DNA of 64,000 bases, from IMG/VR virus record IMGVR_UViG_3300030329_002967, positions 1 through 64,000 of that record. The stretch is one strand, 5' to 3'. Below are positions 48,048 through 52,242 of this stretch, one piece after another. The notes beneath the pieces are model-generated. The model was given only the letters and a program-made list of their open reading frames with translations, did no database searches and was not told the DNA's origin. How positions within the stretch are numbered: position 1 is the stretch's first letter; each line of letters starts with the position of its first letter. Made by a program: the position numbers and the translations under genes. The DNA is from a virus.

Positions 48048-48213
48048 GTTATTTTATTTAAATAAAAGGTGTGAGGAGGGATTTACTTTTTACCCTCAAC
48101 TTTCGGTTTCAACATATTGCAGTTTAACCTAATCGCACTCCGCTCTCTTCGCTCAGCCGGTTGGCCCCTGCTCAAGACACAGATACTTTATTGCTGTTGT
48201 AACAATTATTCAG

Positions 48214-48519
48214 TCACTCACGTTGAGGAGCTACCTCAAAATTCATATCATCACTTAGTTGCTGTAAGCATTCCATAACATCGGTAAGTGATGCATCTAC
48301 TGCGTCTACCGTCTTATGTACATTACTCACCCTAGCTAACAGTAACGCTATAGTTATCTTGCTTAATTGGTCACTTGGGATTAACTCATCACCGCACACA
48401 CACCGTAATGCATTAACTGAAACTTCCACGGTTCCATGTGGGGAAGGTAGTTTAAGTTCCCTCGGTACTAGGTCGTAATAACCATCGCCGCATTCTGTAC
48501 AACAAATTCCTTCTTTCAT
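48214..48519 (-). CDS. Zinc-ribbon protein, transcription-factor-like
   Basis: 101 residues. CCTECGDGYY at the start and LRCVCGDE at about 38-44 form a two-CxxC zinc ribbon, as in the MqsA/YgiT type N-terminal domain. The rest is helical without a clear HTH (ITIALLLARVSNVHKTVDAVDASL). A decayed promoter copy (ATGACA ... AAATAG) precedes the ATG, overlapping the end of the upstream gene. Confidence 0.65.
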   Translation of the reverse strand: MKEGICCTECGDGYYDLVPRELKLPSPHGTVEVSVNALRCVCGDELIPSDQLSKITIALLLARVSNVHKTVDAVDASLTDVMECLQQLSDDMNFEVAPQRE

Positions 48520-50031: not shown

Positions 50032-50358
50032 CTAAAAAGAACTACTATATTCAATATCTGGGAACTCAATACGATGCCTCAACTCATCTTGGCCTCTCAT
50101 CGCATGAAGCGAGCTTTCGCCTCCTATATGAAACTCGATACGCTCATCATCCGAGAACTCCCTGTACTCTTTCCAATCGTAAATCGTAAAGAATGAGCCA
50201 TCGCTGGTCAGCATATCCCATTCAACTGTTGTCTTATCACCACCTCCACGCCAGCACGGTTCACCGCACACTGCTTTAATCTGATTTACAGACGCTAATA
50301 TCGTCTGCCCGTGAAAACTTGTACTAATGAACGGAGTATTTTTTGCTTGTTTCATCAT
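50032..50358 (-). CDS. Small uncharacterised protein, MMK start
   Basis: 108 residues, alpha/beta with several Trp and Tyr (VEWDMLTSDGSFFTIYDWKEYREF). Two Cys in VCGEPCWRGGG. No family recognised. Its stop codon touches the next promoter without a spacer base. Confidence 0.65.
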   Translation of the reverse strand: MMKQAKNTPFISTSFHGQTILASVNQIKAVCGEPCWRGGGDKTTVEWDMLTSDGSFFTIYDWKEYREFSDDERIEFHIGGESSLHAMRGQDELRHRIEFPDIEYSSSF

Positions 50359-50363
50359 GCTTT

Positions 50364-50392
50364 AATATAGCACACCCTAAAACCTTTGTCAA
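50364..50392 (-). promoter_or_regulatory. Leaderless-type promoter of the 50358 gene
   Basis: TTGACA, 17 nt AAGGTTTTAGGGTGTGC, TATATT; 5 nt to the first ATG. It is back to back with the plus-strand promoter at 50427. Confidence 0.88.
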
Positions 50393-51095: not shown

Positions 51096-51124
51096 ACTAT
51101 ATCACAGTATAAAACCTTTGTCAA
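51096..51124 (-). promoter_or_regulatory. Leaderless-type promoter of the 51090 gene
   Basis: TTGACA, 17 nt AAGGTTTTATACTGTGA, TATAGT; 5 nt to the first ATG. Confidence 0.88.
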
Positions 51125-51154
51125 CTAAAAAAGGTATTTAAATTGATGCTATCC

Positions 51155-51229
51155 CCATTAGTCTCCTCCTTTCGGATTGTAGGCGTGGTCTGACGCCTCG
51201 TTGTTCGGTCTTTCGACCTACACTAATGG
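51155..51229 (-). ncRNA. Four-helix RNA fold downstream of the tRNA-like gene
   Basis: CCATTAGT and ACTAATGG close an 8-bp stem around three hairpins: GGTC/GACC with a GAAA loop, AGGCGT/ACGCCT with a 6-nt loop, and TCC/GGA with a GAAA loop. The compact four-way junction begins 2 bases after the tRNA acceptor stem. Two GNRA loops suggest tertiary contacts. It is probably part of one longer transcript from 51538. Confidence 0.58.
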
Positions 51230-51231
51230 CT

Positions 51232-51370
51232 GTCCGTAGCAGGACTCGAACCTGCGACCTCCCCTTATACCATTAACAATGACTAGTTGCTTAAAGCGAT
51301 ACCAGCGAGTAGTCACTCTCTACTGGCTCTACTTCTAGGCGGGTTGCTCTGCCAACTGAGCTATACGGAC
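51232..51370 (-). tRNA. tRNA-like gene with about 67 extra bases
   Basis: A perfect 7-bp acceptor stem (GTCCGTA/TACGGAC), D-arm GCTC-AGTTGGCA-GAGC and T-arm GCAGG-TTCGAGT-CCTGC are all present. Between D- and T-arm there are about 67 bases more than normal. A TTGTTAA loop flanked by weak pairing would give anticodon GTT (Asn), but the anticodon stem is poor. CCA is not encoded. It may be a tRNA with a small insertion or intron, or a tRNA mimic in a larger RNA. The extra part contains an AGTAG/CTACT hairpin. Confidence 0.6.
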
Positions 51371-51385
51371 ATCAATTTAATTCTC

Positions 51386-51491
51386 ACTGATGACTCACTC
51401 CCATATAGGGTTAACGAGGAGTAATTACTTCCTCCATCGAACCGCTTGCAATCGGTTTCAACTTCACCCTATAGGGGAGTGAATCATCAGT
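51386..51491 (-). ncRNA. Long-stem RNA fold upstream of the tRNA-like gene
   Basis: 51386-51411 and 51466-51491 pair over 26 positions with two mismatched positions. The closed part holds AACCG/CGGTT and GAGGA/TCCTC hairpins. The 5' arm can instead form a local hairpin TTCAC...GTGAA, so two states are possible. It starts about 40 nt after the promoter at 51538. Confidence 0.6.
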
Positions 51492-51537
51492 AATTTACGG
51501 GATAAGCTACTTACTTTTACTTCACCTCCCGTGATTA

Positions 51538-51566
51538 AATATAGCACACCCTAAAACCTTTGTCAA
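51538..51566 (-). promoter_or_regulatory. Promoter of the tRNA/RNA cluster
   Basis: TTGACA, 17 nt AAGGTTTTAGGGTGTGC, TATATT; identical in spacer to the 50364 promoter, but no start codon follows. The region 51091-51751 has no protein gene. Confidence 0.88.
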
Positions 51567-52208: not shown

Positions 52209-52213
52209 ACCTA

Positions 52214-52242
52214 ACTATAGCACATCCTAAAACCTTTGTCAA
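52214..52242 (-). promoter_or_regulatory. Leaderless-type promoter of the 52208 gene
   Basis: TTGACA, 17 nt AAGGTTTTAGGATGTGC, TATAGT; 5 nt to the first ATG. Confidence 0.88.

Follow-up and report, generated by a model that had tools for sequence, protein, structure and literature searches.

YrlA and the bacterial Y RNAs are noncoding RNAs that contain a tRNA mimic. GOLLD, ROOL and OLE are large structured noncoding RNAs which, according to the accessible text of one account, form homo-oligomers partly via kissing loops (PMC12286853). The same account, in the portions available, describes GOLLD and ROOL as cage-forming phage RNAs that lie near tRNAs, and the palindromic loops of OLE and GOLLD as covarying yet staying palindromic (PMC12286853). 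The tRNA cluster of phage T4 contains two stable RNAs, rnaC (139 nt) and rnaD (119 nt), whose roles are given as unknown in the available text of the two sources (PMC3014915, PMC9697503), and introns in the tRNA genes of Lak megaphages are called enigmatic in the accessible part of the report on them (PMC6784885).

Here we consider an element in a 64,000-nucleotide stretch of viral DNA (the window; positions 1 to 64,000 of IMG/VR record IMGVR_UViG_3300030329_002967). An initial annotation had described it as a tRNA with a 67-base excess and no good anticodon stem, and had offered a disrupted tRNA, a tRNA mimic or a new type of small intron as explanations. Our analysis of the sequence leads us to believe, with a probability of roughly 0.85, that the element represents a noncoding phage RNA in which two domains are joined, a tRNA-like domain (T) and a second structured domain (B), rather than a decoding tRNA or an intron-bearing tRNA. 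Of the explanations offered earlier, a mimic, in the sense of a non-decoding tRNA-like RNA, fits best, whereas simple decay is improbable and a new small intron lacks support for the window gene.

Palindromic loops kept through sequence change, as described for GOLLD and OLE, are seen in two subgroups of the T-B kind, while the window T itself falls short by the hairpin rule used below. Unlike GOLLD, ROOL and OLE, they are much smaller (about 245 nt including a closing helix, P0), their oligomers are only putative here, and a tRNA fold is built into the RNA itself; Rfam scans of the window and 21 other loci gave no GOLLD, ROOL or OLE covariance-model match at T-B. With rnaC and rnaD they share being phage-encoded, the T4 pair lying beside tRNAs in the accessible descriptions. 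The 3' end of rnaC has a T-arm-like hairpin and an acceptor-like 3' strand, and neither a D arm nor a 5' acceptor strand was recognised there by eye; the T4 region is without B, and the T4 pair was set aside as members of the family. Lak tRNA genes, as far as the available text describes them, are likewise over-long by an insert, but there the genes that have the insert can be aligned with those that lack it, while in T-B the insert is a paired arm that is followed by a second domain (PMC6784885). Rfam gave no match to YrlA or the bacterial Y RNAs at the window, a comparison limited by the fact that Rfam may not include the relevant YrlA model.

Results

The tRNA-like domain

The Rfam tRNA model matches T over its full length at 46.3 bits (gathering threshold 29), and the acceptor (7/7), D (4/4) and T (5/5) stems are fully paired (Table 1). 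In a normal tRNA the D and T arms are about 23 nt apart; here the distance is 90 nt, which confirms the 67-base excess. Run without introns, ARAGORN returned zero tRNAs across the window. With introns permitted, it called T a tRNA-Ile(TAT) with a 67-nt insert at 35/36, with T33, A37 and A38, and the anticodon stem left by this splice has only four pairs, one of them G.G. No canonical anticodon arm (5-bp stem, 7-nt loop with U33) can be formed by T, unspliced or single-spliced, so that the reported lack of a good anticodon stem is borne out; the anticodon loop suggested in the same annotation, TTGTTAA (51273-51279), was wrong, as it overlaps the 3' strand of hairpin 2. At this locus neither ARAGORN nor Rfam finds a tmRNA, and no minus-strand ORF of at least 80 aa overlaps the T-B unit in the window. 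Rfam matched no group I intron core at T, and 67 nt is far below known group I intron sizes. A reduced group I intron, with UGACUA/UAGUCA as a P7-like pairing by eye, was considered and rejected, as it lacks Rfam support and the pairing fits a two-hairpin arm better.

By itself the window T folds modestly better than its shuffles (z -1.78, 7/200). A covariance model built on T (R2) scores the window at 43.3 bits and does not discriminate, ordinary tRNAs reaching 46.9 with it. A search for close relatives of the window phage via neighbouring genes and terminase gave none that were useful. By sequence comparison, T keeps the acceptor, D and T arms of a tRNA, with the anticodon arm replaced by a larger paired structure.

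Table 1. Positions of the features discussed (window positions unless a locus is named).
Feature	Position	Strand	Basis or remark
Sigma-70-like promoter, TTGACA-17-TATATT, extended -10 TG	51538..51566	(-)	11/12 consensus matches
RNA A, 5' module upstream of T: 29-nt arms (90% complementary), two inner hairpins	51386..51491	(-)	
P0 5' strand (UUAAAUUGAU)	51371..51380	(-)	could pair with 51138-51147, closing T + B
T, tRNA-like domain	51231..51370	(-)	Rfam tRNA model, arm pairing
T acceptor stem	51364-51370/51232-51238	(-)	
T D arm	51346-51361	(-)	
Enlarged anticodon arm + variable loop (90 nt), in place of normal anticodon arm	51256..51345	(-)	
Possible hairpin 1 (CCAG/CUGG)	51302..51326	(-)	sequence and inverted repeat
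Hairpin 2, AGCAA[CUAGUCA]UUGUU	51275..51291	(-)	5-bp stem, 7-nt loop
T T arm	51239-51255	(-)	
T N73 = A	51231	(-)	CCA not encoded
Linker G, single nucleotide, N73 to B	51230..51230	(-)	1 nt in 57/64
B, 75-nt structured RNA	51155..51229	(-)	covariance model, 95 bits
Order within B			P1 CCAUUAGU/ACUAAUGG, P2, GAACAACG, P3 AGGCGU/ACGCCU, ACAA, P4, GAGA
P0 3' strand (AUCAAUUUAA)	51138..51147	(-)	
Stem-splitting tRNA inserts, examples	L201:905-1026	(+)	
	L110:2120-2236	(+)	
	L105:9980-10106	(+)	
	L116:7370-7484	(+)	
	L204, others		
Stem-splitting tRNA insert, cultured phage	Serratia phage BF KY630187.1 296462-296762		
GUUACU(U)/GUUAU insert family	L087:4110	(-)	
	L100:147	(-)	
	L144:3123	(-)	
	L168:2558	(-)	
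	L185:445	(+)	
Stand-alone B, Patescibacteria/unplaced MAGs	L350, L352, L354, L361, L364, L373, L376-L378, L380, L383, L387, L389, L398, L401		

The enlarged anticodon arm and its loops

The arm was analysed in a first, marine subgroup of phages, for which 12 T sequences were aligned out of 13 grouped by eye (L279 could not be parsed and was left out; the alignment also leaves aside L368, which looks alike). There it consists of a 6-bp stem and two hairpins. Over the whole of T, changes on both sides were found in 28 of the 37 pairs tested, the loop palindromes included, and both-side-changed cells numbered 87, against 25.8 after shuffling and at most 14 after sliding. The hairpin 1 loop reads ACTAGT, TCTAGA or ACATGT and is palindromic in 12/12; that of hairpin 2 reads TGATCA or TAGCTA and is palindromic in 11/12, the exception being L284 with CGATCA. 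A second T subgroup carries ACTAGT, GCTAGC or GATATC in the same columns (9/9). When sequences with pairwise similarity below 85% were retained, 16 of 38 distinct T had hairpin loops with 6-nt complementarity to themselves or to each other, compared to a mean of 3.7 and a maximum of 9 in 500 rounds of loop shuffling, and palindromic six-mers over 51 distinct T inserts amounted to 99 against 62.5 expected (sd 8.2).

Adjacent bases within one chain cannot pair together, and for this reason we read the palindromic loops as putative intermolecular contacts. This is the argument made for OLE and GOLLD in the accessible text of their description (PMC12286853). The pattern suggests that the T-B RNA is probably self-associating.

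The window is a weaker case for loop docking than the palindromic subgroups. The loop of possible hairpin 1 contains UGACUA (51310-51315), a complement of the hairpin 2 loop, and hairpin 2 has a marine counterpart in AGCGA[CUGAUCA]UCGUU. By the hairpin rule, however, the window loops give 3 mutual and 4 self matches and fall short of 6-nt complementarity, and the minimum-energy fold of the unit prefers UGACUA/UAGUCA as a nested plain helix over the two-hairpin form.

RNA family B

BLAST of the window against loci that had been gathered for other reasons matched one other phage, L171, where the matching stretch lies between two over-long tRNA-like elements. A sequence pattern derived from that stretch retrieved 110 stretches in viral contigs which, together with the window, were reduced to 88 by removal of duplicate flanks, one of them (L324) being a coding chance match. 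A covariance model built from nine sequences (R1) then gave 101 viral matches in 100 sources, or 74 distinct rows. Across these rows 96.4% of the cells are paired, with 324 both-side-changed cells compared to 86 after shuffling (0/500) and at most 75 after sliding. The window B is the best match of this model, which was built with the window B included, and the stretch from 51229 to 51150 gives a closed fold with three inner hairpins (z -4.35).

Members of the family share helices P1 to P4, with covariation, and a GAACAACGAGGC...GCCUACAA core. The core was preset by the search pattern, so that its invariance is partly due to selection, and P3 shows hardly any variation; the covariation evidence therefore rests on P1, P2 and P4. 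No B-like family was found in the Rfam scans of the window and 21 other loci. A literature search, which fell short of most subscription papers and bioRxiv, found no paper with GAACAACGAGGC, and within the same bounds no published description of T-B was recognised from titles and abstracts. To judge by its covariation, B is a real structured RNA family, apparently undescribed.

The model is specific, matching one in 234 loci gathered for other reasons (100 + 80 + 54), namely L171, in which B stands beside a tRNA-like part with an insert. Each of 20 phage records scanned whole, of about 10 to 459 kb, contains one B (20/20), and so does the window phage. Taken with the linkage described below, these scans indicate that many phages carry the T-B pair, once per genome.

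In named bacterial contigs, B was found in Patescibacteria MAGs and in one Bacteroidetes MAG, generally without T, from which it follows that B has no need of T. Many of these bacterial B have a promoter-like site before and a terminator-like hairpin after them, as judged by eye. The matches in named contigs also include phage-like contigs with T (L358, L368, L394) and a MAG labelled Euryarchaeota (L392) in which B is accompanied by a T ending in CCA. A draw of Patescibacteria genomes contained B in 2 of 192, one being the centre of the draw and one already known, and B is thus sporadic in this group; since they are rare, the stand-alone B genes are possibly mobile. Among cultured phages, a collection BLASTed with few members only, the model matched Tetrasphaera phage TJE1 alone, at 35.7 bits. 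Matches in Bradyrhizobium and other coding matches were set aside as chance because their flanks read as coding. The Arthrobacter phages Kumotta and QuinnAvery were rejected as carriers, as they have the P3 hairpin in common, yet gave no match to the B model. What these two phages do possess is a conserved, largely unannotated stretch (L407:1905-2050 (+), L408:660-810 (+)) with a long closing stem and the B-like P3 hairpin, near HNH or terminase genes.

A self-cleaving ribozyme was also considered for B and set aside by argument: Rfam gave no ribozyme match, and since B in Patescibacteria begins, as judged by eye, no more than about 10 nt from where transcription is predicted to start, self-cleavage would have little to cut. 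Two neighbouring features may be recorded here. A RAGATH-1 hammerhead ribozyme match at L252:3342-3412 (+), 59.7 bits, and a B element are about 1 kb apart. At L171:5420-5490 (-), the second over-long tRNA is followed by the truncated beginning of a B, which leads into a short RNA with, by eye, tmRNA-like ends (GGGGGTGCATCGGATTCGA ... GGGTTCAACTCCCAACACCTCCACCA).

Linkage of T and B, the closing helix and the upstream region

Linkage was counted over the 80 of the 101 viral B that were left after removal of duplicates. A T arm and acceptor 3' strand lie directly upstream of B in 64 of the 80, and the spacing between discriminator and P1 is exactly 1 nt in 57 of those 64. The closing acceptor 5' strand is present in 61/80, giving T lengths from 74 to 215 nt, and only two of the 61 (74 and 77) are of ordinary length. 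The remaining 16 have no T arm by the rule applied, several of them with a T-arm-like hairpin with another loop, as seen by eye. The 88 pattern matches give a similar picture: a complete tRNA-like element stands within 70 nt upstream of B in 56, with a D-to-T distance of 58-112 nt in 54 of these and the ordinary 23 nt in 2 (L290, L343).

In the window, the repeats at 51138-51148 and 51370-51380 are perfect complements, and without the first base of the tRNA they leave a predicted 10-bp helix, P0, that can close T and B into one unit. The 245-nt P0-T-B unit folds better than its shuffles (z -3.70, 0/200). An unrestricted search for P0 over the T-B class found no enrichment beyond chance. When the helix was placed flush against T, 12 of 47 members (distinct flank pairs, L279 left out) had at least 5 bp, compared to a mean of 3.05 with swapped partners and 0/1000 reaching 12; the flush condition was set once the window had been seen.

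Upstream of T, the promoter-like site predicts, by consensus match only, an RNA start near 51531. The module RNA A has a strongly favoured fold in the window (z -9.45, 0/200 shuffles); at its position long hairpins of a different kind occur in the relatives L302, L310 and L253, and many relatives have none. A promoter-like intergenic stretch (TTGACAAAGGTTTTA...TATA) recurs at several window genes (50358-50386, 51120-51148 and 52212-52236, (-)). Elsewhere in the window, 48066-48239 (-) matches the manA RNA motif (RF01745) at 56.8 bits against a gathering threshold of 55.2, a motif that came from marine metagenomes and cyanophages according to the available text of its description (PMC2864571).

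Small inserts in T-B and in other phage tRNAs

One splice produces a canonical anticodon loop in 23 of the 51 T-B class inserts. Shuffling of the interior gives a mean of 19.5, and 24 of 200 such shuffles, with the insert ends kept, reach 23; none of the 51 allows a split inside the anticodon stem. In view of this lack of excess and of the four-pair stem with its G.G, a small intron was rejected for the window gene.

A second class of phage tRNAs behaves differently. Its inserts of 37-77 nt mostly interrupt the anticodon stem directly 3' of base 28 or 29, and in a first viral scan one splice restored a perfect arm in 47/82, compared to 1.9 after shuffling. In a wider set of 147 candidates, collected partly via a CAGCA motif, one splice gave a canonical arm in 78, and 50 of these 78 have CAGCA downstream of a hairpin. 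These inserts look like genuine small introns, so that the new intron type that had been suggested for the window seems to exist in other phages. In cultured jumbo phages of Serratia and Erwinia the tRNAs of this class carry the annotation tRNA-OTHER or tRNA-Lys, and the loci scanned with the B model had no B beside them.

Inserts of other kinds were also seen. One further stem-splitting family is without CAGCA and has GUUACU(U) or GUUAU ahead of the 3' exon (Table 1). The tRNA-like genes at L188:2268 (+) and L169:13346 (-) have D-to-T gaps of about 70 nt with another kind of insert, inside which CACCC/GGGTG and CGTCC/GGACG covary.

Discussion

Our consideration of how the T-B RNA might work is speculative. 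We propose that the unit would be transcribed as a single RNA from the promoter-like site, and that T and B would then form one RNA particle in which P0, the acceptor stem and P1 of B meet at a three-way junction. The tRNA shape of T might contribute stability and processing signals, or perhaps allow binding of tRNA-binding proteins, and the domain on the anticodon side might, through its complementary hairpin loops, dock onto other copies or fold back in cis. By analogy with GOLLD and ROOL, we weakly infer that the most likely role is that of a self-associating RNA scaffold or of a decoy made in infection; any choice between such a scaffold and a tRNA-body decoy is made here with low confidence. 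The fullest form of the model is more tentative, and we would lean against it as a whole: a new kind of phage RNA particle, in which self- or mutually complementary 7-nt loops have turned the anticodon arm of a tRNA fold into a docking device, T and B are closed into a unit that dimerises or polymerises in infection, and B is a module that Patescibacteria also possess and that moves between viruses and cells.

Perhaps T and B are instead two independent genes, for a tRNA-like RNA and for B, joined so that tRNA-processing enzymes free the 5' end of B. The B genes that stand alone in some Patescibacteria, between promoter-like and terminator-like sequences, and the occurrence of the stable rnaC and rnaD beside tRNAs in one T4 cluster, give this scenario some substance. 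Nevertheless, a mere processing handle would need no conserved branched arm, and P0 in the window pairs the leader with the trailer of the joined unit, and we therefore regard two independent genes as unlikely, though the most serious of the alternatives. A more specific possibility is a tRNA decoy against defences that cleave or sense tRNAs, with the tRNA body kept and no anticodon left to cut. It follows from the anatomy, an intact body with its anticodon arm replaced, but it leaves B and the palindromic loops unexplained, and no link to defence was seen in our analysis; we consider it improbable.

For a decayed tRNA, a gene killed by insertion or fusion whose remainder was kept by chance, one can point to the weak anticodon stem and to the fact that no close relative was found for comparison. 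A chance remainder would hardly be expected to have perfectly paired acceptor, D and T arms and its own promoter-like site. Moreover, simple decay is very improbable because many diverse phages show this architecture again, with covarying helices and the fixed 1-nt spacing to B. Least credible is a tRNA-Ile(UAU) gene whose new 67-nt intron is spliced from the anticodon loop to yield a decoding tRNA: the ARAGORN call, the perfect anticodon arms restored in other phages and the introns published for Lak tRNAs, as far as the text available goes (PMC6784885), speak for it, but the defective spliced stem, the want of excess restorable loops and of any stem split across the T-B class, the internally paired and covarying arms, and the absence of B beside intron-type tRNAs, L171 excepted, whose tRNA-like part is of the T-B kind, speak against it.

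If the two-domain RNA that we favour is taken as the working model, several consequences follow. It would add an apparently undescribed structured RNA family, of which each of 20 phage records contains a single copy, and would account for over-long tRNAs of a type that tRNA-finding programs overlook or call intron-containing. Through it, tRNA-like phage RNAs of obscure role, T4 rnaC among them, may become a testable class whose domains are defined, and the question of why phages build RNA assemblies could be put to a small system. Should B prove to be a shared module, one RNA would link phages and Patescibacteria.
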